Under the pieces are notes generated by a model, which searched no databases, was not told the origin of the DNA, and saw only the letters and a program-made list of their open reading frames with translations. This document shows positions 851 to 62,650 of a DNA stretch of 64,000 bases, piece by piece. Each line of letters begins with the position of its first letter. Within the stretch, counting starts at the first letter, position 1. The stretch is from Haematococcus lacustris (lineage: Eukaryota > Chlorophyta > Chlorophyceae > Chlamydomonadales > Haematococcaceae): positions 4,409,509 to 4,473,508 of the forward strand of contig JASKMD010000021.1 in the NCBI GenBank assembly GCA_030144725.1. Reading direction: 5' to 3'. A program made the translations under genes and the position numbers.

Positions 851-853
851 CAG

Positions 854-1050
854 GCACATTATTCCCCTACTATTACTACAGGGCAGGAGCTGTGTTATCT
901 GTAATCCGAACTGTTTGCATGCAGCAAGCATCCGGCACCAATACCTGATTCACTACCCCAACCCGCTTGCGAAGGCCAGGAAACCTATGTTGGCATGAAA
1001 CACATGCTCTAGTGTAAGCAACAGCTTTAGCATTGCGTGGTGCACACATG
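854..1050 (-). other. Conserved 3' noncoding segment of the Fanzor element; candidate guide RNA region
   Basis: The sequence from the Fanzor stop codon down to about 854 is nearly identical to 13748-13944 behind the second copy. Homology stops abruptly on the outer side of both, at the shared start GCACATTATTCCCC, so this is probably the right end of the mobile element. In known TnpB/Fanzor systems the guide (omega) RNA scaffold is transcribed from the 3' end of the gene into the element end. Assigning that role here is inference from position and conservation; no fold was computed. Confidence 0.4.
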
Positions 1051-3277
1051 CTACTGTGCTACAGGCTGCTGGGCTTGGTCCTTGGGGGCTCGGTCTCGCA
1101 GCTTCTTGAAGCCCAGTGCTGGGCACTCCTTGCCCTGGGCAGGAAGTCTTCCTCGGTGTGGCCACCTGCACAGCTCTAGTGGGCGCCACTTGCTCTCCCC
1201 TCCCCACTGGAGGTTGAGGGCTGCGTTGCAGTCCCTGTCCACCCATTTGCCAAGGTTCCCAGGGGTGGCCTGGGCCAGCCAAGGGCACCACATGAGTCCC
1301 CGCACTGGCGCCTCAAACCGCTTGCTCCAGGCTGACCGCAACAAGCGGTCCTGCACCTGACCTGGCTTGGGCTTCCAGTCCTTAGGCCTGGTGGGCTTGC
1401 TGCTGTCCAGCTCCTCCTCACAGGGCTGGGGGCTGTTCAAGATTGAGCTGACCCTGCTGGTGCAGAACTCATCCACTGTCACCACCCTGCCTGGCACCCT
1501 GTCGGTTGGCTTGCCGCTGTTGGGCCTCTCCACCACATTGCGGCAGGCCTGCAGCACGGCCTTGGCCCCCCACCCACCCCGGGTGCCAATGCCTGCGTTG
1601 CCAAAGAACACCACCAGCTGCTTGCGGGTCCCCCACTCCTGCTGGGACACGCTGGCTGCCTCCTCCTCCAACTGCATGGCACATAAGCACACAATGCACA
1701 CAATGCACACAATGCACACCATGCAGATGACATCCTTGGCAGAACTGGGGGCATGGGCACCTAGCAGGTCGCATGTGGGGCAGTCATCAGCCTCTGGTCC
1801 TGCCCCTCCCCACCCCCACCCTTGGCACTCCCACCTTCAAGTAGCGCTTAAGGACCTTCTCCTGCGCACCATGCAGCCTCATCCTTTGCTCAGCCCACTT
1901 GGGATGCAGGTACTCCCCCCACACTGCATCCCAAGTGGCCAGGGTGACGGCCACATGCCGCTGGATGGCCACCTGGGAGGTGCCTGCTGGGGTGGCTGCT
2001 GCCAGGTGCTGCAGCTCGAGCTTGACGTTCTCATTCCACCGCTGAGTGTTGTGGCGAGCCTGGATCAGGCCGCTGTCATGCTGCAACTGGCTCCTGATCA
2101 GCTTGCTCCTGTAGAAGCCTTGCAAGCGGCCATCTGCACGCCACACCCCTGAAGCTGCGCTGACTGCCTGGATGGCACCAGGGTCCAGCCCCATGCCCAT
2201 CTGAGTGGCTGGGTCAAACAGGAACGCCCGCTCATCAGCCAGGCCGCTTCCTATGTCAGCTGGAGGGCGTTTGCAGCTGCTGCTGCTGTCAGAGGGGTCT
2301 GCAGCTGCTGGGCTGCTGCCAGAGGGGTCTTCAGCTGGGCTGCTGCCAGAGGGACCTGCTGCTGGGCTGCTGCCAGATGGGCCAGGGGGGGTGTAGTCCA
2401 GTGGGCGTGTGTATTGCACACACACACCGACCCCATCAGTCATCAGGATTCGCCTATTGTACACAAAACCCCGGTTGGCGAGCTTGCATACCTTGAACAC
2501 ACTGTCCCAGTGACTGTAGGCAGCATGCTCGGCCTGAAAGGCGTTAGCTGTGGCTGTGGTCAGGCCAAGCTGACTGCACACCCCATGCAAAACCCTGGTA
2601 TCTATCGTGATGAAGTGGGTACCTGACCCTGCCATGGGGGTGAGGATGAAGGGTGGGGGGCAATATGGCACCCGAGGACCCTTGCCCTTGCCCTTGCCCT
2701 TGCCCTTGCCCTTGCCCTTGCCCTTGCCCTTGCCCTTGCCCTTGCCCTTGCCCTTGCCCTTGCCCTTGCCCTTGCCCTTGCCCTTGCCCTTGCCCTTGCC
2801 CTTGCCCTTGCCCTTGCCCTTGCCCTTGCCCTTGCCCTTGCCCTTGCCCTTGCCCTTGCCCTTGCCCTTGCCCTTGCCCTTGCCCTTGCCCTTGCCCTTG
2901 CCCTTGCCCTTGCCCTTGCCCTTGCCCTTGCCCTTGCCCTTGCCCTTGCCCTTGCCCTTGCCCTTGCCCTTGCCCTTGCCCTTGCCCTTGCCCTTGCCCT
3001 TGCCCTTGCCCTTGCCCTTGCCCTTGCCCTTGCCCTTGCCCTTGCCCTTGCCCTTGCCCTTGCCCTTGCCCTTGCCCTTGCCCTTGCCCTTGCCCTTGCC
3101 CTTGCCCTTGCCCTTGCCCTTGCCCTTGCCCTTGCCCTTGCCCTTGCCCTTGCCCTTGCCCTTGCCCTTGCCCTTGCCCTTGCCTTTGCCCTTGCCCTTG
3201 CCCTTGCCCTTGCCCTTGCCCTTGCCCTTGCCCCTGCCCTTGCCTTTGCCGAACAGAACTAGCAAAACAGATAGCAT
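1051..3277 (-). CDS. Fanzor, eukaryotic TnpB-like RNA-guided endonuclease, two exons
   Basis: Predicted RNA-guided DNA nuclease of the Fanzor/TnpB family. Exon 1 ends at 1835 (donor AAG|GTGGGA); exon 2 runs 1671-1051 (acceptor ATGCAG|TTGG). Both junctions are phase 0. Motifs in order: a TDGVGV block typical of Fanzor N-terminal regions; RuvC-I as GLDPGAIQAV (Asp codon 2183-2185); the RuvC-II strand as VVFFGNAGIG, without the usual Glu; a downstream VDEFCTSRVSS (Glu codon 1468-1470), which fits the relocated catalytic Glu described for Fanzors; and RuvC-III as WVDRDCNAALNLQ. The zinc ribbon is degenerate: CEEEL and MWCPW each supply one Cys where CxxC pairs are expected. Start is uncertain. 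The ATG at 2635 gives about 473 aa; the ATG at 3277 adds a (Gly-Lys)n tract from the hexamer satellite and gives about 687 aa. The single intron contains a four-copy 9-bp CACAATGCA repeat (about 1690-1722). No stop or frameshift interrupts the model. Confidence 0.8.
2679..3250. repeat. (CCCTTG)n hexamer satellite, about 95 copies
   Basis: Almost perfect 6-bp array with a few C-to-T changes near its right end. On the minus strand it reads CAAGGG, in frame with the Fanzor exon and encoding alternating Gly-Lys. All other frames are open too (for example Cys-Pro, Leu-Pro) and are artefacts. Confidence 0.95.
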
Positions 3278-3416
3278 AGACCTCGAACTCGGACAGGGCC
3301 TGCAGTGGACACCAGCAGAGAGCTAGACAAATCCTGGCAGCTGGGTTGGGCGGTCTGGGAGAAAGCTGGGGGGTAGCCCAGCACCAGGCCTCACACCTCC
3401 CCTCCCCCCTTTGCAG

Positions 3417-3589
3417 TCACACCCGGCTACAGCTGCAAGGCGCACTACATCAGCTTGGACACCTGGGCCATCCTTGCCATGATGCCTACCGCTGGCATGC
3501 TGCCAGCGGACACCAATTCCTCGGTCGAGTTCAGGGATAATGTTGTGATGAGGGGTGGCAGACTCGTCCCCGGGCCCAGGGACAGTGAG
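3417..3589 (+). CDS. Orphan internal exon of an unrecognised gene
   Basis: A strong pyrimidine tract and acceptor (CCCTTTGCAG|TC) and a strong donor (GAG|GTGAGT) bound 173 nt. They are open in the frame that completes a codon with two bases and ends at phase 0. The peptide includes YSCKAHYISLDTW and VEFRDNVVMRGGRLVPGP, which look like folded protein, but I do not recognise the family. The following intron was invaded by the foldback element 18 bp downstream of the donor. Neither the upstream exons (Fanzor lies there on the other strand) nor downstream exons could be placed, so this may be a gene fragment. Confidence 0.45.
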
Positions 3590-3770
3590 GTGAGTGATCC
3601 TATACTCCAATTAATTCTCCCGGTAAGTGGCTACCCCATGGGGGTAGCCACCGTCACCCCCCACAGGGTAGGTTGCGCCAACCGACCAACCGCTGCCCGC
3701 CCAGCTGCTCCTGCGAACGCGGTCTGCGCTGCAACCCACGTATCAAATCTAATCTCCGTGCTCCGCAGCC

Positions 3771-13660: not shown

Positions 13661-13747
13661 CCTTCACTATGGTCAGCAAGCATGGAGCCTCACTGTCACA
13701 TGCTGGAGTCAGACAATCGTCTGCGGCCTCGGATGGCAACCTGTACA

Positions 13748-14466
13748 GCACATTATTCCCCTACTATTACTACAGGGCAGGGGCTGTGTTATCTGTAATC
13801 CGAACTGTTTGCATGCAACAAGCATCTGGCGCCAGTATGTGATTCACTACCCCAACCCGCTTGCGAAGGCCAGGAAACCTATGTTGGCATGAAACACATG
13901 CTCTGATGTAAGCAACAGCTTCAGCATTGCGTGGTGCACACATGCTACTGTGCTACAGGCTGCTGGGCTAGGGCCTTGGGGGCTCGGTCTTGCAGCTTCT
14001 TGAAGCCCAGTACTGGGTACTCCTTGCCCTGGGCAGGAAGTCTTCCTCGGTGTGGCCACCTGCACAGCTCCAGTGGGCGCCACTCGCTCTCCCCTGCCCG
14101 CTGGAGGTTGAGGGCTGCGTTGCAGTCCCTGTCCACCCATTTGTCAAGGTCCCCAGGGGTGGCCTGGGCCAGCCAAGGGCACCATATGAGTCCCCGCACT
14201 GGCGCCTCAAACCGCTTGCTCCAGGCTGACCGCAACAAGCGGTCCTGCACCTGACCTGGCTTGGGCTTCCAGTCCTTAGGCCTGGTGGGCTTGCTGCTGT
14301 CCAGCTCCTCCTCACAGGGCTGGGGGCTGTTCAAGATTGAGCTGACCCTGCTGGTGCAGAACTCATCCACTGTCACCACCCTGCCTGGCACCCTGTCGGT
14401 TGGCTTGCCGCTGTTGCTGGGCCTCTCCACTACCTTGCGGCAGGCCTGCAGCACGGCCCTGGCCTC
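13748..14466 (-). pseudogene. 5'-truncated second Fanzor copy (C-terminal exon only)
   Basis: 13945-14466 is nearly identical to the C-terminal exon of the gene at 1051-3277, and 13748-13944 to its 3' noncoding segment. It keeps VVTVDEFCTSRVSS, the single-Cys zinc-ribbon remnants and WVDRDCNAALNLQ, then the stop. Homology ends at about 14466 inside AVLQACR, so RuvC-I and the GNAGIG strand are absent. The open frame continues upstream by chance into unrelated sequence. One codon is inserted relative to the full copy (PSNSG against PNSG). The two copies are very similar, implying recent duplication. Confidence 0.8.
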
Positions 14467-14915
14467 GCACCACAGCAGGTGGCAGCACGCCGTGCCAGCC
14501 TCGTGCAAATGGATGGCATGACCTGGCCGGTGCGCACCACTGCTCGGGCTGTAAACAAGCATGGGAGGCGCAGGTGGTGAAGGGTACGAGGCGGGGTGTG
14601 GTTGTGAAGCCTAGCTGGCCGCTGGGGGCTGCCAGTCCTGGGCCGGGGGCTGGGTAGTGGAGGCTGGAAGAGCTGCAAGGTGGGTGGCCAGAAGCTGGGT
14701 GGAAGCTGCATGGTGGGGCACTCCCCCGGGTGGCTTGGAGGGAGGGGAATGGATCGCCACTGGGTGGACATGGTGAGGGTGGGTGAGGTGGGGCTGGGGG
14801 GCTGCACTGGGGTTAAACTGTAGCTGGGGGGCTGATGCAGGGCCAGAAGGGGAGGTGGGCCTCAGGGGCAGGCTCACATGGCAAATGGTGAAGTGCTGAG
14901 AGGGGGGGGCGTCAC

Positions 14916-23272: not shown

Positions 23273-23587
23273 TTGTTCCCCGTGCTGGAGTGCCTTAGGC
23301 GATGCTTGGCCAATGCTCAGTGCCGCAGCCTATGCAGGGTTAGGAGAATGGTTTTGTGCACGTGGGGGGGTTTGGCCAAAGTGCCAATGGACGGCTTGCA
23401 GACCCCGTGCCAGGTATTGTGTCGTGCCGTCTCTGTATCAGTTGCGGATGGAGAAACGTTGACGTGACCTGGGTCCGCGCATAGCTACCATGGCAGCTTT
23501 GGGGTATCTGTTGGTGAAAATCATCATGGCAACCGAGTCACGCACCCTTGACTGCTAATCAGCCCTCTTGTCCCTCACTAGGGCCTC

Positions 23588-23668
23588 CATTTGAGCCGGA
23601 TCAGTAGTACCCACTAGCAGCCACAAGCGGGAATGTACTAGTGGGCAACAGTGACCCGACTCAAATGG
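23588..23668. other. Hairpin in the right end of Fanzor-derived copy C
   Basis: CATTTGAGCCGGATCA pairs with TGACCCGACTCAAATG with two mismatches, enclosing a second stem (CCCACTAG/CTAGTGGG). Copy D has the equivalent arms with a perfect 13-bp stem, TTTGAGCCGGATC/GATCCGGCTCAAA (28153-28230). Confidence 0.7.
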
Positions 23669-23824
23669 TGTTATTGGGCTGTGTGGAGTAAACCCAGTGC
23701 ACATGGGCACATGAGCGCCTACCACCTACATTATAGCCTGACCCGTTAGGGCTATTGTGTAGAGTTGGCATGACAAAACATGCGCTAATGTAAGCTGATA
23801 ACAGCTCAACAAAGGGGGCACACA

Positions 23825-24730
23825 CTACTGTGCCACAACAGGCTGCTGCTGCTCCTGGGCCTTGGGTGGCTTGTCTCGCAGCCGCTTGTAGCCCAGGCCA
23901 GGGTACTCCTTGCCCTTGGCTGGCAGAGCTCCCTGGTCTGGCCAGTAGCACAGCTCCAGTGGGCGCCACCTGCTCTCCCCAATGCGCTGCATGTTCAGCG
24001 CTGCATTGCAGTCCCTGTCCAGCCACCTGCCTGGCTGTGGTGCTGGCTAGGCTTTGGCAGCCTTGCCCTTGGCGTTGCCCTTGGTGGGCTGGGTGGCCTC
24101 AGCTGGCTGCTCAGCCTTGGTGCACTTGCTGCGCTTGGCTGGAGGGGGAGTGCTGGGTCCAGGCTCTGAGGCTGCTGGCTGTGTGGCTGCCTGGCTGCTG
24201 CATGGGGCCTGTGGGGGCTTGCGGGGGGCCACTACCGGGCACCACATCAGGCCCGGCACTGGCTGGTCACGCCGCTGGCTCCAGGCTGGGCGCACCAGGC
24301 GGGCTTCCACCTGCCCTGCTGGTGGCTTCCATCCTGCAGGCCTTGTGGCACTGAGTGTGTTCAGCTCCTCCTCACAGGGCTGCTTGGCCAGCAGCGCCTG
24401 GTTGCTGGGGTCCTCAGAGACTGGCATGAGCATGGGGTGGCGGCGCTGCCCTTTGCGCAAAAGGCGCCGCTGCAGCTGGTTGTAGACTGTCTTGAAGCTG
24501 GGTTTGGCGAAGTACTTGCAGAAGTCTTTCAGCTGCCTTAGCATCACGCAGTCAAGGGGCAAGGGAGGGCCAGTGGGTGCTGCGGGTGCAAGGGCTGCCA
24601 GGCGGGCGCTGCAGCGCCTTTGGGGGGGTTGCGTGACTGGCTCAGGTTCTGACTCTGACTCCGAGTCAGACTGTGGCTCTGGCTCAGAGTCACAGTCTGA
24701 CTCGGAATCAGAGTCGATGTCACGCTCCAT
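23825..24730 (-). pseudogene. Fanzor-like gene C lacking the RuvC core, with a nonsense codon
   Basis: From the ATG at 24730 it encodes an acidic Ser/Glu/Asp-rich segment (MERDIDSDSESDCDSEPEPQ). A short segment with FCKYFAKPSFKTVYNQLQRR and HPMLMPVSEDPSNQALLAK follows. It then rejoins Fanzor sequence at QPCEEEL, with GLMWCPVVAP, a Lys/Pro-rich linker and WLDRDCNAALNMQ. The GLDPG, GNAGIG and VDEFCTS motifs are missing, so the nuclease core is gone. A TAG at 24047-24049 replaces the Lys codon present in copy D; the frame is intact on both sides of it. Non-functional as a nuclease. Confidence 0.75.
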
Positions 24731-25734
24731 GCTGGCAGGCTGGGCAGGGGCAGGCTGGGCAGGGTCGCGTGGGGGTAGTGGGGGGTGGGGGGTGGGGGGG
24801 AGCATCAGGGGGTTGGGGGGGGCTGCACGGCTGGAGGCTGAGGGGCGCTGGGGAAGCCCGGGGTGGGGTAGCCCACCAGGCAGGTCAGAAAAATGCGCAG
24901 AGACAAACAATGAAGCGATGACGCGGAACTGGGAATGCACCTCAGCCCGCAACTGGAGATGCTCCCGCAGCTTACGCCTCGTCTACTTGCACCCGCGCAG
25001 CACAGCGCCCTCCGGGACCTTGATGACCTGCGGCCAAGCACAACCAACATTTTGACAGGCCACTTTGACAGGCCAAGACAAAAGGGGGGGACACAAACAG
25101 TGCGGGGACACACAAGGCGGGCGCGGCCTGTCACCTGACGTAAATGGTGTTATTGTCAGGCGTTCCCAACATGGGGTTGGTAATCTTCATGCAACTGCAG
25201 CCCATCTACTCCATCATTTGATGTAACGTTTGCTGCGTCTGCTGCAATGCGAAATTGCGCGTTTAATGTTCGACTGGAATTGCCATCGGAGTCTTTCGAT
25301 GCGGGCAGCCACATGTGACCCCGGATGTGTCTTAATCGCAGACCGTGGTTAGCTACACTGGTAAGCTACGTCCTTGGCTATCCGTTAGCGATGCACGACA
25401 TGTTGGTGGCGCACACCACCGAAGTCCGGCAAACATGGCTGCGCGAGCTTCTTGATGGTGCAGGCCGCTTGGCGAGGATGTGAAGGAACCCGGGTTTGTG
25501 TGTGGCAGCGCTGTATCGCTGTAATGGTGGGCGGCACAGTAGGGACTAGACACCCCCTCCAGCTATGACCCGCTATATGTTTTCAACCATTGAACAACAG
25601 CCTGGCCTTACACGAATCTTTTGTAGCATACTCATCAACGCGTCCATGGCACCATGCAACTCAATCATTGGGTTTGTATGTGACAAGATGGACCGCTTAC
25701 AAGGTACACATGCTGATGGCTACAGGTGCATGAG

Positions 25735-28105: not shown

Positions 28106-28388
28106 GGTCAGTGGTCTGGGCTTCCAGCCCCCTTGTCCCTTACTAGGGCCTCCATTTGAGCCGGATCAGAAGTACCTACTAGCGGCCACTATCAGCCACT
28201 AGCAGCCACTAACTAGATCCGGCTCAAACAGTGTTATTGGGCTGTGTGGAGTAAACCCAGTGCACATGGCACATGAGCCCGCCTACCACCTACATTATTG
28301 CCTGACCCGTTAGGGCTACTGTGTAGAGTTGGCATGACAAAACATGCGCTAATGTAAGCTGATAACAGCTCAACAAAGGGGGCACACA

Positions 28389-29280
28389 CTACTGTGCCAC
28401 AACAGGCTGCTGCTGCTCCTGGGCCTTGGGTGGCTTGTCTCGCAGCCACTTGTAGCCCAGGCCAGGGTACTCCTTGCCCTTGGCTGGCAGAGCTCCCTGG
28501 TCTGGCCAGTAGCACAGCTCCAGCGGGCGCCACCTGCTCTCCCCAATGCACTGCATGTTCAGCGCTGTATTGCAGTCCCTGTCCAGCCACCTGCCTGGCT
28601 GTGGTGCTGGCTTGGCTTTGGCAGCCTTGCCCTTGGCCTTGCCTTCGCCCTTGGTGGGCTGGGTGGGCTCAGCTGCCTGCTCAACCTTGGTGCACTTGCT
28701 GCGCTTGGCTGGCGGGGGAGTGCTGGGTCCAGGCTCTGAGGCTGCTGGCTGTGTGGCTGCCTGGCTGCTGCATGGGGCCTGTGGGGGCTTGCGGGGGGCC
28801 ACTACCGGGCACCACATCAGGCCCGGCACTGGCTGGTCACGCCGCTGGCTCCATGCTGGGCGCACCAGGCGGGCTTCCACCTGCCCTGCTGGTGGCTTCC
28901 ATCCTGCAGGCCTTGTGGCACTGAGTGTGTTCAGCTCCTCCTCACAGGGCTGCTTGGCCAGCAGCGCCTGGTTGCTGGGGTCCTCAAAGACTGGCATGAG
29001 CATGGGGTGGCGGCGCTGCCCTTTGCGCACAAGGCGCCGTTGCAGCTGGTTGTAGACTGTCTTGAAGTTGGCGAAGTACTTGCAGAAGTCTTTCAGCTGC
29101 CTTAACAGTCAAGGGGCAAGGGAGGGCCAGTGGGTGCTGCGGGTGCAAGGGCTGCCAGGCAGGCGCTGCAGCGCCTTTGGGGGGGTTGCGTGACTGGCTC
29201 AGGTTCTGCCTCTGACTCCGAGTCAGCCTGTGGCTTTGGCTTAGAGTCACAGTCTGACTTGGAATCACACTCCATGCTGG
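28389..29280 (-). pseudogene. Fanzor-like gene D lacking the RuvC core, frameshifted
   Basis: Collinear with gene C. The C-terminal 213 codons are open to the stop at 28389-28391 and keep QPCEEEL, GLMWCPVVAP, the Lys-rich linker and WLDRDCNTALNMQ (Asn-Thr where the others have Asn-Ala). Upstream, deletions relative to C (about 7 bp near 29105 and 6 bp near 29070) break the frame of the acidic N-terminal part. The same nuclease-core segment is missing as in C, so the deletion predates their duplication. The Lys codon that is a stop in C is intact here. Confidence 0.75.
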
Positions 29281-29566
29281 CAGGCTGGGCAGGGGCAGGG
29301 GCAGGTCGCGTGGGGGTAGTGGGGGTTGGGGGGAAGCATCAGGGGGTTTGGGGGGGCTGCACGGCTGGAGGCTGAGGGGCGCTGGGGAAGCCCGGGGTAG
29401 GGTAGCCCACCAGGCAGGTCAAAAAGATGCGCAAGACAAACGATGAAGCGATGACGCGGGACTGGGAATGCACCTCAGCCCGCAACTGGAGATGCTCCTG
29501 CAGCTTACGCCTCGTCTTCTTGCACCCGCGCAGCACAGCGCCCTCCGGGACCTTGATGACCTGCGG

Positions 29567-30838
29567 TCAGGTCCCACAAGGTCTGTTTGGCGAAATGTAC
29601 CGTGAGCCATTTGATGCCGCGCTTACACAGCCGTGATCAGCGAGCCTTCCCGATATGCCTACTGCATCAAAGGGCCTGCACGGCCTGGGCGCCCACCAAC
29701 CCTCGACAAGTGTCCAGGTGGCAAGGTTACTGTAGATGGATGCGGCGTTCCTTCTAAAGCGGGGGCTAGTAGGTACGGTCTACAACAACGCTAGCGCGAG
29801 GGCCGGCGGTTATGTTCGGTAACGGGGTGGCTCGCATCTCGCATCGGGCTGTCGCAGCTTGCTCGCAACATGACTAAGCCCTCCTCCTCCACCACATCAA
29901 AGCATATACTACGAGCTGCAGGCAGCATGTCCGAAGGAATTGTTTTTTTCTGGTCTCTCCTTCGACGACATTATTGAGAGGGCTGATGAACGACGACAGC
30001 TTCCTATGCTTTCTTATGCTTCCCTATGCTTCCCTTTGCTGTCCTATGCTTTCCGATCCTTCCTATTCTTACTACGCTTAGTGCGGGGTGCCATCGCTAT
30101 CAATGGCCGCCAGTCTGCATCATTTGCGCCGCTGATGGACGCTGGTGGTAGCTTGGAGGAACCAGAACGACCTCTAGTACTTTCGCAGCCTGGTGAGCGC
30201 GAGATGATGGGGTAATTTAGACATGAGCATGGTAGGTATGTCTAAGTGTATCTATGGGTGCTAACCTAAAGGATACGCTACCAAAAGTTGCAGAAGTTCT
30301 CGGGGCACACCGCTTGCATCTCAACATGAGGTCAGCACGGCGTTTGATGCACTTCCCGCCTAGAAATGAGGTTTCAACTAAATGTAATTGCATGAGCCTC
30401 CCAACCTGCGCAGGGCAGATGTAACACACTGCAGATCCTTCCCGTAGGAGCTATGAGCATACCCCAAAGCTAGGGCGCAGAAACCAGACGGATGCGTAGC
30501 AGCAACAAGCAGCAAATCGACCTCAAAAACAGCACTGCAGATTTGCATGCCGGCACCCCATCGCGGCACGCCGACCGACCGACTAGTGACCGCTCTACCA
30601 CGTTCGTCGTTGCGGCGTTGTTGATTCATGTGCACTACCGTCAGGGTGCAAGGAGTCACTGGTGCCAGGATACCGCGGAGGGGGGCAATGTTGACTTTAG
30701 CCCGTCCCTCGCAGGCCAAGCTGCGGAGCACCACGCCGCAGCGGGGCGTCGCGGTTTGACCTCTTGGAGTTCAGTATACGCGACAAAAAGTGACGGTACA
30801 TTTTATCGAGCCATTTTACCTGACCTTGTGGGACCTGA
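29567..30838. mobile_element. 1.27 kb DNA transposon with TCAGG termini and 7-bp duplication
   Basis: Starts TCAGGTCCCACAAGGTC and ends GACCTTGTGGGACCTGA, a perfect 17-bp inverted repeat; a further subterminal match is AAATGTACCG. CCTGCGG flanks both sides (29560-29566, 30839-30845). It sits inside Fanzor-derived copy D. It contains a 91-codon plus-strand frame (29940-30215) with no recognised domain and appears non-autonomous. Confidence 0.88.
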
Positions 30839-31080
30839 CCTGCGGCCAAGCACAATCAACATTTTGACAGGCCACTTTGACAGGCCAAGACAAAAGGCGG
30901 GGACACAAACAGTGCGGGGACACACAAGGCGGGCGCGGCCTGTCACCTGACGTCTGCGCGTGTTCCAGCCATCCCGACGCTCCTGTCGTTGCTTGCCTTG
31001 AGGGGAACGAGACGCTGCAATAGAACTAACAGGAGCGACGGGTTCTCACACAGCGCGTAAGTCACGTAGCCCACAGTCGG

Positions 31081-31158
31081 CTAGGGACACGAACCATTCC
31101 GCTTCTTTCCTGGGTCCTTCTTGTGCTTGTCGCTGCCCTTACGTTTCTTCTTAGCCAT
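31081..31158 (-). CDS. Very short basic ORF, doubtful
   Basis: 25 codons, MAKKKRKGSDKHKKDPGKK..., with an SV40-like KKKRK nuclear signal. It may be a first exon (possible donor AATG|GTTCGT) or chance. No continuation was found. Confidence 0.2.
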   Translation of the reverse strand: MAKKKRKGSDKHKKDPGKKRNGSCP

Positions 31159-43644: not shown

Positions 43645-43735
43645 CAGCCCCCTTGTCCCTCACTAGGGCCTCCATTTGAGCCGGATCAGTAGTACCCACT
43701 AGCAGCCACTAGCGGGAATATACTAGGGCAGGGCT
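43645..43735 (-). mobile_element. Solo right end of the Fanzor-derived element
   Basis: About 70 bp nearly identical to the right ends of copies C and D (CAGCCCCCTTGTCCCTCACT, then CATTTGAGCCGGATCAGTAG), after which similarity decays. No coding sequence follows. Confidence 0.75.
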
Positions 43736-57958: not shown

Positions 57959-58185
57959 TGCAACGGTTTGCATGCATGCTCGTCCATGCAGCCCGGCAGC
58001 GGTGGTATTTCTACATGTCATGCACGGTTTAGATATCATCTGTTTTCTGCATGGAACCTTCTAGATATGTGAGACGGTGTGAGCTACCCTGTTTTAAGCA
58101 CAGAACAGTTGTTTATGGACATTCCGTGTAAGACGCAAGTGCGTGTCACCGCTCTCCCGGATTCCTGTGGCTTCTCCCCGTTACA
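57959..58185 (+). repeat. 5' LTR
   Basis: TG...CA termini; same length and, by eye, the same sequence as the 3' LTR. Confidence 0.95.
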
Positions 58186-58188
58186 TTT

Positions 58189-58206
58189 TGGTGCCCTCAA
58201 TCGGGA
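58189..58206 (+). promoter_or_regulatory. Putative primer-binding site
   Basis: TGGTGCCCTCAATCGGGA begins three bases after the 5' LTR. It starts with TGG, complementary to a tRNA CCA end; the tRNA was not identified. Confidence 0.6.
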
Positions 58207-58240
58207 ACAAACCGCCTTTACTACGGAGACTAGAGACTTG

Positions 58241-59161
58241 ATGGAGGAACTATCGCCCATTGCGTATCAAGTCTCCGAGCTCATGCGCCAAGTCAGCGAG
58301 CTCACTCTTCTGACCGGCAGCCTGCGGCAGCAATTCGAGCACTTCGTCACAACGCAGCCCGTTGCTACCCCCGCTTCTACACCTCTAGAACCTTTTGGAC
58401 AATCCGCCCCTCCCGCCCCTCCCGCAGCCACCTCCGTTCCGCTGCCTTTTCGGCCCCCTCCACCACCGTCCTTCTGTGGGACCCCCAACGCGGATGCGGG
58501 TCAATGGCTGTGGCGCATCGACAACCATTTCGACCTTTTCGCCATGCCTGCCCAACAACGGCTGTTGGCTGTCACTTCCTACCTCGACGGCGCTGCCCTC
58601 ACCTGGTACCGCAGCTTGCTGTCCAGCCAGGCCCTCAGCTCTTGGGACAGTTTCAAAGCCAGTTTCACGCGCCAGTTTACTCCTGTGAACCAGCAGCGGC
58701 ATGCAAGGGATCAGCTGGCAGCCTGCCATCAGATCACATCAGCCCGGCAATACATCATGGAGTTCAGCAATCTTTGCCTCCTCATCTCTGACTTGTCTCC
58801 TGCTGAGAAACTGGATCGTTTCCTTAGGGGTCTCAAGCCGGCTGTGAGGCGGGAGCTGGAGCTGAGGGAGCCTACCTCCTTTGAGGAGGCTGCCGCCATG
58901 GCTGACCGCGTTGATGCTATCACCTTTGGCAGCCGCCCACGCCAACTCAAGCTCCCCGAACCTGAACCAGTGGCTGCCATGGAGCTTGATGCCCTGCAGG
59001 TCAGCAAGGGCCCCCGTTTATCAGCGGCTGAGCGACAACAACTGCGTGACTTGGGAGCTTGCTTCTATTGCCGCAAGCCTGGCCACCTAATGAAGGACTG
59101 TCCCAACAAGCCACCACGCCCAAAAGACGCTGGGGGCGTGCGGGAGGCAGCCCGCCGCTGA
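58241..59161 (+). CDS. Gag of the Gypsy element
   Basis: 306 codons from ATG 58241 ([20 protein letters not shown]). A coiled N-terminal helix and a Pro-rich linker are followed by the retrotransposon Gag core ([44 protein letters not shown]) and one CCHC knuckle, [14 protein letters not shown]. The frame is open upstream into the LTR but has no earlier ATG. Pol is in the -1 frame and overlaps the 3' end by about 100 nt, so expression by -1 frameshifting is possible. Confidence 0.85.
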
Positions 59162-61692
59162 GCCCACCATCCCTTCTGCCACCCTCTTCCTTAATTCCTC
59201 GCTTTGAGCTGGCTCCTCGTGTTCCCTACCACCTACCTCAACTCCCCGCTCCTCTTCCTCGGGCTCCTCCTCCTCGGCCTCTTCCCCCTCCTCCTCGGCC
59301 TCTTCTCCGTGCCCCCTACTGGCTACCCACACTCCCTCTTCCTCCTACACCACAACCCTCTCTTCCCTCTCCACGTTTCCGTGCCCCGCTCTTCTGCCTT
59401 ACTGCGCCCTGCCAGGCCCGCGGTGCTAACTGCCCTCCATGCAGCCCCCTTCCTACGCAGTCAGCTCAGCCCCTGGGCAGCTCCAAGTCTCCGGGACAGC
59501 CTACTCTGGATGTAGAGTCCTCCCCATGCCCATCCGCACCTGTGTGCAGTGGTACTCCGCGTCACTCCTCGTCGCCTAGCCTGCCAGAGCCCCTAGTCAT
59601 GTCGTCGCTCTCCGTGGACTCCAAGCCTTTCATCCTCCATGGAACCTTCTCTGGACACCGTGCTCGTTTCCTGCTGGACAGTGGTGCCACGGGCAACATT
59701 GTCAGCAGCCGCTTCTTCCAGCAAGCCGGCCTGCGCATGGCGGGCAAGGCTGCTCCTGGCCGTCTGCTCCTTCCTGGGCCCTCCCCTTCCTACCTTCCCA
59801 CCTACGAGCTTTCCCACTGCACTGTACGCCTTTCTACCTACCATGATCGGGTGCCCTTCGTTATGGCTGATATCAGCAACGCCGACTACGATGTGGTGTT
59901 GGGCAAGCCATGGCTCACAGCGAAGAACCCTGATATTAACTGGCCTCTCGAGCGCATCACTCTCCGCCACGCCGGGGCCGTACACACCCTAGCTGCTCCA
60001 CCTTCTCCTGCCCCCAACCCCTCAGCCTCCCAGCTATTGTCACCTGCGCGCTTCCGCAAAGCCGCCCGCAAGGACGCCGTATTCGTGGCAGTTCTCACGG
60101 ACTCAAGTCCTCCCCTTTCACCCTCTCCAGCTATGCCCTCCTCCCACACTTCAACCTCAACCTCCCCGCCGCCTGATCAACCACAGTGGCCCCCTTCTCT
60201 TCCCCCAAGCGCTACCGCCCTACTATCTGAGCACATCGAGGTCTTTCCCAAGGAGCTTCCATCCGTGCATAATCTACCACACCGCTCTGTTGATCATGTG
60301 ATCCAGCTGGAGTCCGGCACCCCTCCCAACCGCCCTGTCTATCGCATGTCTCAAGAGGAGCTAGACGAGCTCAAGCGGCAGCTGGACGAACTCCTAGCCA
60401 AGGGCTACATCAGGCCATCCACGTCACCTTTTGGCTCTGCAGTCCTCTTTGTGCGCAAGAAAGACGGGAGCCTGCGCTTGTGCGTGGACTACCGGGCCCT
60501 AAACCAGCTGACCATCAAGAACCGCTATCCCCTTCCCCGCATTGACGACCTCCTGGACCAGCTGGCTGGTGCTAGAGTCTTTTCCAAGATTGACCTCAAG
60601 TCTGGGTACCATCAGATCCGAGTGGCCGAGGCTGACATCCACAAGACAGCATTCCGTACCCGCTACGGCCACTATGAATACACCGTCATGCCATTTGGCC
60701 TGTGCAACGCTCCCGCCACCTTTCAACGCCTCATGAATGACATCTTCCGCCCACACTTGGATCAGTTTGTACTAGTCTACCTGGACGACATTCTCATTTA
60801 CTCCCGGTCTGAGGCTGAGCACCTGGAGCACCTCCGCACCGTTCTAGGCCTCCTTCGCCAACACCAGCTATATGCCAACCTCTCCAAGTGCGCCTTCTTC
60901 CTTCCCTCTATGGACTTCCTGGGTCACATCATCTCGGCTGCGGGCATTCACCCTGACCCAGCTAAGATTCGTGCCATGGTTGAATGGCCGGTACCCCGCA
61001 ATCTCAACGACCTCCGCTCCTTCCTCGGCAGTGCCAATTACTATCGTCGCCTCATCCACCACCATGCCCACCTCATCCTTCCCCTCACCAACCTCCTCAA
61101 GGCCGAGACACCATGGTCATGGGGCCCAGAACAACAAGAGGCTTTTGAGCGTGTCAAAGCTGCTCTAGCCAGCAACCCCGTGGTTCGCCCCCCAGACTTC
61201 TCCCGGCCTTTTACCGTGAAGACGGATGCGTCGTTGTATGCCATTGGAGCAGTGCTATCACAACGGGACGACAATGGCGCCGAGTACGTTGTGGCATATG
61301 AGTCACGCAAGCTTCAGCCCGCGGAGATCAACTACCCTACCCACGATCGCGAGCTACTCGCTGTGGTGCATGCCCTTACTCTTTGGCGTCACTACCTTCT
61401 GGGTCGGCCTTTCACCATTGAGACGGACAACTGCCCGATCACTCACATCATGACCCAACCGCATCTTAGCGCTCGACAACTTCGATGGACCCAACTGCTG
61501 GCCCCTTACTCCTTTACCCTGGTGCACAAGGCTGGCAAGACACACATTGTGCCAGATGCGCTCTCCCGACGGCCTGACTACCAGTTATCAACCCTCTCCG
61601 TTGCCACCCCGGACTCTGCCTTCTTCGCTACCTATGACCACCATGCGCTCCAACATCGACATAGCCAAGGCAGCCCTGCAGCGTGCGGTTGA
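59059..61692 (+). CDS. Pol: protease, reverse transcriptase, RNase H
   Basis: Open frame without an early ATG, overlapping gag in the -1 frame. The Pro/Leu-rich linker is followed by an aspartic protease ([19 protein letters not shown]). Reverse transcriptase has [50 protein letters not shown] and the catalytic [14 protein letters not shown]. RNase H has [18 protein letters not shown] and [10 protein letters not shown], ending at the usual [11 protein letters not shown] boundary. After about 61640 the frame leaves pol homology and stops at 61692, because the integrase core has been deleted and the reading frame shifted. It looks intact up to RNase H. Confidence 0.9.
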
Positions 61693-62422
61693 CAAGCAAA
61701 AGCAACAGGCAGATAAGCACCGCCGTCATCTTGAGTTCAATGTGGGTGATAAGGTGCTCCTCTCTACTGCCACCCTTAACCTCAAGACGCCCAGCAACAG
61801 CGCCAAGCTACAACCCCGCTATGTTGGCCCCTTCAAGGTTCTGACCAAGATATCACCTGTGGCTTACAAGCTGGACCTACCCACCACGATGAGGATCACA
61901 CCCACCTTCCACATCTCCAAGCTGCGGCCGTACCTTACCACCAGCTCCTTCCCCGACCGCCATGTTGACCTGCAACCACTACCCCAATTGGAGGACGGTG
62001 AGGAGTATTTCACCATTGAAGCCATCTTGGGCCGACGCTGGAACGACTCCCAGCATGCGTTTCAATACCTTGTGAAGTGGAAGGGCTACGACGACTCCTT
62101 CAACTCGTGGGAATGGGGCCCAGCATTGGCCGAACAAGAGGACGTGGCTGACATGATCAGAGACTACACGGCTCGCTACCACGTACCTCCAGACAAGCCG
62201 GTAGACGACGATCCTGCATGCCAGATTTGCGCGAGTCGCGCTAGCCACCCTCCCATGTTACTTTGCGACAAGTGTGACCAAGGTTATCACATCACCTGCC
62301 TCACTCCACCTCTACGTAGTGTTCCCAAAGGAGCATGGCTATGTCATGAGTGCAGGCGGAACAGCGTGCGGAGGTCACGACGATTAAATGTTTCGGGGCG
62401 CAACATTTCAGGGAGGGGGTGA
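61645..62422 (+). pseudogene. Integrase C-terminus, chromodomain and PHD finger remnant
   Basis: Out of frame with upstream pol. It begins near [20 protein letters not shown], with FNVGDKVLLST (the integrase C-terminal GPY/F region, LQPRYVGPFKVL) and PTFHISKLRPYL. A chromodomain follows (EEYFTIEAILGRRW, YLVKWKGYDDSFNSWEW), then a C4HC3 PHD finger (CQICASRASHPPMLLCDKCD, GYHITCL, WLCHEC). The H2C2 zinc finger and DDE core are absent. No start codon is positioned to make this on its own, except by reinitiation at ATG 61645-type codons. Confidence 0.85.
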
Positions 62423-62423
62423 A
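62410..62423 (+). promoter_or_regulatory. Polypurine tract
   Basis: AGGGAGGGGGTGAA immediately before the 3' LTR. Confidence 0.75.
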
Positions 62424-62650
62424 TGCAACGGTTTGCATGCATGCTCGTCCATGCAGCCCGGCAGCGGTGGTATTTCTACATGTCATGCACGGTTTAGATA
62501 TCATCTGTTTTCTGCATGGAACCTTCTAGATATGTGAGACGGTGTGAGCTACCCTGTTTTAAGCACAGAACAGTTGTTTATGGACATTCCGTGTAAGACG
62601 CAAGTGCGTGTCACCGCTCTCCCGGATTCCTGTGGCTTCTCCCCGTTACA
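62424..62650 (+). repeat. 3' LTR
   Basis: Same length and, by eye, the same sequence as the 5' LTR. It is followed by ACCACCACTG, restoring the Harbinger intron. Confidence 0.95.

Follow-up and report, generated by a model that had tools for sequence, protein, structure and literature searches.

Fanzor1 genes are already known from a green alga. In Chlamydomonas reinhardtii, a multi-exon gene of this type is carried by the Helitron2-type elements CRe-1, CRe-2 and CRe-3 (Bao and Jurka 2013, PMC3627910). In the available portions of that paper, these elements are described with constant 3′ ends, with copies that are 5′-truncated or internally deleted, and with target-site duplications at ~70% of CRe-1 and 57% of CRe-2 loci. 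According to the accessible text on SpuFz1 of Spizellomyces punctatus (Saito et al. 2023, PMC10432273), this Fanzor has a D383-E541-D606 triad, with the glutamate before the zinc-finger place, as well as WED and REC domains and a CCCC zinc finger; REC lies in the front part of the protein, reads the TAM and lines the channel that holds the guide-target duplex. The TnpB and pro-Fanzor proteins of IS607 bear a fingerprint made of DPG and an alternative glutamate, as given in the accessible part of Yoon et al. 2023 (PMC10711439). Neither a zinc-less Fanzor nor a Fanzor from Haematococcus is described in the available portions of the openly licensed PMC literature (PMC10432273, PMC11423790, PMC12633428, PMC10711439 and PMC3627910).

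We analyzed a 64-kb stretch of DNA from Haematococcus lacustris, taken from contig positions 4409509-4473508 and referred to below as the window. A gene at positions 1051..3277 of the (-) strand, designated A1, is a copy of what we call subfamily A. Its features and those of its relatives in the window are collected in Table 1. A sequence-only reading had reported a two-exon frame with phase-0 splice sites and family motifs, and these are real. When the sequence was read again, the donor (AAG/GTGGGA) and the acceptor (ATGCAG/TTGG) were found in place, the exons joined in phase 0 to give 687 codons with TAG as the last one, and the product contained GLDPG, GNAGIG, VDEFCTS and DRDCNAALN. Database proteins matching the spliced product number 511 at E <= 1e-3, which excludes a chance origin of the frame. 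At the protein level, K-LEE runs uninterrupted across the intron site in most of 25 proteins (alignment A4). With a probability of about 70%, we consider that A1 belongs, as a 5′-truncated subfamily-A copy, to a family of Fanzor1-like mobile genes that has expanded in H. lacustris.

Table 1. Features of A1 and of related sequences in the window.
Feature	Positions	Strand	Remarks
A1 3′ tail, stop codon to element 3′ end	851..1050	(-)	ends ..TGTGCCTG; ..GCTG in most copies
A1 exon 2	1051..1671	(-)	RuvC-II (E_alt), degenerate zinc-finger region, RuvC-III, stop TAG
Catalytic Asp, RuvC-III (DRDCNAALN), residue 628	1231..1233	(-)	D in 269/278 readable domain rows
Second CxxC place in A1	1276..1287	(-)	C-P-W-L, one Cys remaining
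First CxxC place in A1 (E+7 to E+10)	1438..1449	(-)	S-S-I-L, no Cys
Catalytic Glu, RuvC-II, Fanzor-type alternative position (VDEF), residue 549	1468..1470	(-)	E in 259/266 readable domain rows
A1 intron	1672..1834	(-)	163 nt, GT..AG, phase 0
A1 exon 1	1835..3277	(-)	read from ATG at 3277; family sequence only 1835..2677
Catalytic Asp, RuvC-I (GLDPG), residue 365	2183..2185	(-)	D in 229/238 readable domain rows
Hexanucleotide array	2679..3250	(-)	95 copies, 99% matches, read as (Gly-Lys)n
Broken subfamily-C fragment with in-frame stop	~3296..3598	(+)	head to head with the array
A2, second subfamily-A copy, 5′-truncated	13736..14471	(-)	95.5% identity to A1 on that stretch
B1, subfamily-B copy, 3′ end intact	23560..25036	(-)	lacks ~residues 257-723 of full-length P0163; two in-frame stops
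B1 3′ tail	23560..23825	(-)	
B2, subfamily-B copy	28125..29569	(-)	internal deletion of B1, frame-shifted, 92.7% identity to B1
B2 3′ tail	28125..28389	(-)	
5′ fragment of subfamily-B gene	30836..31158	(-)	MAKKKRK-type first exon and following repeat
Solo 3′ end of subfamily-B element, 82 bp	43645..43726	(-)	

The RuvC triad, D365-E549-D628, is retained in A1. The distance from the first Asp to the Glu is 184 residues, to be compared with 185 in 77 of 132 relatives. At positions where the subfamily is 90% conserved, A1 departs from it 6 times over 346 aligned residues and never at a catalytic site; A-like rows scored in the same way show 2-14 departures in the lowest 25 of 30.

The beginning of the A1 frame is of another nature. 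Its first 200 codons lie outside the family sequence and consist of a short unmatched start followed by the Gly-Lys hexanucleotide array, and homology to the family begins only with PRVPYC at position 2677. A Gly-Lys tract of 14-28 residues is found at the equivalent place in the subfamily-A relatives P0002, P0018 and P0087. Ahead of the PRV/PRT block there are 166 residues in P0002 and 177 in P0087 (Gly-Lys tract counted), and 383 in P0163 and 399 in P0121, both long subfamily-B relatives; the annotated model P0018 has 77 ahead of its PRVP block, and this model, like other annotated ones, is possibly mis-predicted. In the 64-kb window, tblastn found no match to the front part of P0002 or of P0087, and the family front block, where a WED/REC region upstream of RuvC would lie, is present in relatives and was not found for A1 in the window. 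A1 had been described as apparently intact; lacking a front block that spans 166-399 residues in four relatives, it is a truncated copy. Judging from position, the missing block would include the counterpart of REC, the part that reads the TAM in SpuFz1 in the accessible text of PMC10432273, and the suggestion that A1 may encode an active programmable nuclease is not supported. A1 would be incapable of RNA-guided cutting because the part equivalent to SpuFz1 REC, which serves TAM recognition and the guide-target duplex, is missing; on these sequence grounds it most likely has no RNA-guided nuclease activity.

The 3′ side of A1 is shared with many other loci. A search of the assembly with the A1 3′ tail returned 43 matches from 40 scored of 2034 candidates, so that the copy number is a lower bound. 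Thirty copies were stored: 24 of them end in GCTG, five (A1 included) in a one-base variant and one differently, the A1 terminus being the common family 3′ end with one base extra. Beyond this end the flanks are distinct in 25 of 29 cases; several stored copies have flanks in common and are thus duplicates of one insertion, so that the 30 represent fewer independent insertions. In 24 of the 30, homology to A1 sets in within the stored locus, at a variety of positions (for 23 of the 24, more than 70 bases from its edge), and in the other six, A1 itself among them, it extends to the 5′ edge of the locus; these loci were picked by their 3′ ends, and an internal start possibly reflects divergence instead of truncation. 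Subfamily B has 3′ ends of its own, GGGGGCTG or GAGGGCTG. Target-site duplications of >= 8 nt were seen in none of 22 copies, and matched controls behaved alike. Apart from these duplications, the 3′-intact and 5′-truncated pattern resembles that of the Helitron-borne Chlamydomonas Fanzor1, as far as it is described in the available portions of PMC3627910. Copies may therefore have spread in H. lacustris by a 3′-anchored process, as proposed for the Chlamydomonas elements, which would leave truncated 5′ ends behind. As a separate observation, three copies on C32 (near 2284615, 2347384 and 1770733) have a common flank, and ~41 bp downstream the terminal 34 bp of the A 3′ end recur. In the protein database, the clusters of the long subfamily-B and subfamily-C relatives contain 33 (P0163), 8 (P0219) and 10 (P0220) members, sizes that suggest recent amplification.

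The late start of homology in A1 could also be produced by the assembly itself, if two places had been mis-joined at the array and the real locus had a short Gly-Lys tract behind a full N-terminus. The junction does fall inside a 572-bp, 99%-pure simple repeat, and 500 N are present in the window. Against this, sister copies elsewhere often start their homology inside the gene (24/30); as internal starts are common at other loci, no assembly error is needed, and we consider an artefact unlikely.

The three relatives that had been noticed elsewhere in the window were confirmed and correspond to A2, B1 and B2, and further fragments were found beside them. B1 and B2 carry one and the same internal deletion, which indicates that the deleted form was copied, either by transposition or by duplication. 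Other repeats occupy the same DNA. Just beyond A1 lie two inverted repeat pairs, 4711-5015/7288-7592 (305 bp, 97.7%) and 3608-3860/8726-8979 (254 bp, 98.4%). The segment 46800-48715 consists of long tandem arrays with several open frames on both strands (ORFs of 478-1349 residues). An LTR retrotransposon is located at 57959-62650; its 227-bp end repeats (57959-58185 and 62424-62650) are 100% identical, its RT-type ORFs have ~54% identity to H. lacustris proteins annotated as RT and chromodomain, and near its 3′ end an apparent chromodomain followed by a PHD finger was recognized by eye.

Comparison of the copies within the window gave 13 nonsynonymous and 2 synonymous differences between A1 and A2 over 172 codons (ratio 2.0, approximately neutral on few events), and 7 and 3, respectively, between B1 and B2 (0.74). 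Between A1 and both B1 and B2, dN/dS is 0.49. In our reading the copies drift and their ancestors were constrained. The same near-neutral divergence from A2 bears on two accounts in which A1 still has a use. One is that a truncated RuvC protein has been kept for some other role, for instance as a dominant-negative or as an end-binding helper of transposition; the preserved frame and triad would agree with this, the approximately neutral A1-A2 differences would not, and we find it very unlikely. The other is that A1 encodes, in its 687 residues, a complete and active Fanzor in which the Gly-Lys tract replaces the front part. Here the absence of the family front block, the near-neutral divergence and the location of ATG 3277, with the array on one side and a broken subfamily-C relative in opposite orientation on the other, outweigh the uninterrupted frame, the clean splice sites, the kept triad and the few departures from the subfamily, and such an outcome appears very unlikely. 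A1 is an ordinary decaying copy. What stands of the earlier Fanzor reading is the Fanzor/TnpB kinship, an unbroken RuvC with its three catalytic acids and the mobile-element setting; intactness and activity find no support.

We also looked at the folding of the 3′ tails. Single A tails fold no better than expected (z +1.0 and +0.8). Folding is strong in the B1 and B2 tails (z -5.9 and -6.0), each of which has a long terminal hairpin in which the lower stem is kept and the upper part differs. When 26 different A tails were aligned, z reached -3.7 relative to column shuffles (0/100), and 97.6% of cells were in pairs; a change on both sides was seen in only 1 of 49 pairs, in tails that are 92% alike and hence too similar for covariation. 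The folding of the aligned A tails is weakly suggestive of a guide (omega) RNA. Full-length relatives would be RNA-guided DNA nucleases that take their guide RNA from the 3′ end of the element.

The relation to Fanzor and TnpB was evaluated with published motif definitions and with profiles. With respect to the Fanzor fingerprint (Yoon et al. 2023), A1 has DPG at RuvC-I (GLDPG, D365) and a Glu placed six residues ahead of the zinc-finger site (E549, with the lost first ligand at 556); this position was placed by register, the cysteines being gone. The pattern D-x(125,275)-[TS]-[TS] ... RD (Bao and Jurka 2013) is present as D365, TS after E549 and RD ending at 628. The C4 zinc finger that the same definition places between [TS][TS]xx and RD is absent, three of its four ligand places never being Cys. 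A profile match, proposed earlier as a check on A1, did not materialize: with PF07282 (Cas12f1-like_TNB) A1 scores 12 bits, below the curated cutoff of 26.3, and three family profiles found no match at E <= 10 to solved Fanzor structures in the PDB. The PF07282 cutoff is passed by two of eight relatives (27.6 and 26.5 bits), which also match a PHROG named transposase (1.8e-4 and 3.2e-6). Searched exon by exon with PF07282, the whole H. lacustris assembly (307.9 Mb, 6 candidates scored) gave no match at E <= 1e-3; 6 of 14 control genomes were positive. An AF2 model of the relative P0121 (alignment A5, 34 sequences) had a pLDDT of 33.7 and a pTM of 0.23 and is unusable for fold comparison. The protein searches scored the 8000 and 7999 candidates that had the most words in common with the query, and the matches listed (120 of 511, and 120 of 256 in the second search) are all from H. 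lacustris; in viral and prokaryote contigs, 98 and 73 pattern matches yielded no confirmed relative.

That the family is some other RNase H-like one, without Fanzor/TnpB kinship and with a chance likeness of motifs, might be read from the lack of a PDB Fanzor match by sequence and from the three missing zinc ligands out of four, and is very unlikely in view of the two relatives above the Cas12f1-like_TNB cutoff, the PHROG transposase matches and the D-P-G, the E that precedes the lost knuckle by six residues and the RD, all in register. Weighing motif register and Pfam passes against the missing C4, PDB match and usable model, we do not file the family as a strict Fanzor member under the C4 definition. 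It is better described as zinc-less and Fanzor1-like, and to judge from its motifs it looks like Fanzor1 and probably works like it.

The loss of the zinc finger extends across the family. A domain profile built from 128 motif-bearing domains, A1 included, was run on 291 related proteins; 284 of these yielded 573 domain rows, many of which are incomplete, and the counts are those of rows with a residue at the site in question. Of the readable triad sites, 96-97% have the expected D, E or D, and the P of DPG is kept in 234 of 239 rows. At the four zinc-ligand places, Cys occurs in 0/265, 0/265, 229/235 and 0/196 rows, respectively. By regular expression, DPG and E are found in 132 of 208 proteins, the third motif in 107 and CxxC in none, counts that are partly circular. 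Subfamily C presents the same pattern: among 83 newly found proteins, 38 have DPG and E by pattern and none has CxxC. Subfamily D, a divergent fourth one (L001:8482-9997 and L002:1-705) ~90 kb from the window, is likewise without CxxC (VDEFRTSRVSSSV .. WLDRDTNPCLN). Profile comparisons tie the subfamilies together (A-C, E 9e-23; B-C, E 8e-19), and under midpoint rooting subfamily A was not recovered as a clade, its common ancestor spanning all 128 tips. As the absence of zinc ligands is common to several subfamilies, the target-strand-loading domain probably lost its zinc knuckle before the subfamilies split.

The part worth following is the zinc-less state of the family. It is possible, although we hold it as tentative and rather doubtful, that H. 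lacustris harbors a greatly expanded Fanzor1-like branch that dropped the zinc knuckle before its subfamilies split and kept the triad, whose full-length members would be zinc-less, working RNA-guided nucleases spread by a 3′-anchored process. If so, this branch would offer a test of the need for a zinc finger, which SpuFz1 and ISDra2 TnpB both have, in target-strand loading into RuvC, and more kinds of eukaryotic nuclease would become available for assays. The many copies with a fixed 3′ end and varied 5′ ends are useful for asking how Fanzor-bearing elements move.

Set beside the described systems, within the accessible parts of the three papers, the H. lacustris family is in several respects like and unlike each of them. 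With IS607 TnpB and pro-Fanzor (PMC10711439), A1 has the DPG and alternative-glutamate fingerprint in common; unlike them it is eukaryotic, intron-bearing and devoid of a zinc finger, and its D-to-E distance exceeds the apparent 120-160 residues of the search pattern in that paper. In SpuFz1 (PMC10432273) the triad is arranged as in A1, with E before the zinc-finger place; SpuFz1 has REC, WED and a CCCC zinc finger, whereas A1 is without the family front block and has lost three of the four Cys. CRe-1/2/3 (PMC3627910) likewise come from a green alga with a multi-exon Fanzor1-type gene, and likewise combine constant 3′ ends with 5′-truncated copies and internal deletions; unlike them, the H. 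lacustris family has neither a C4 zinc finger nor detected target-site duplications. This likeness is one of the described gene type and end pattern.
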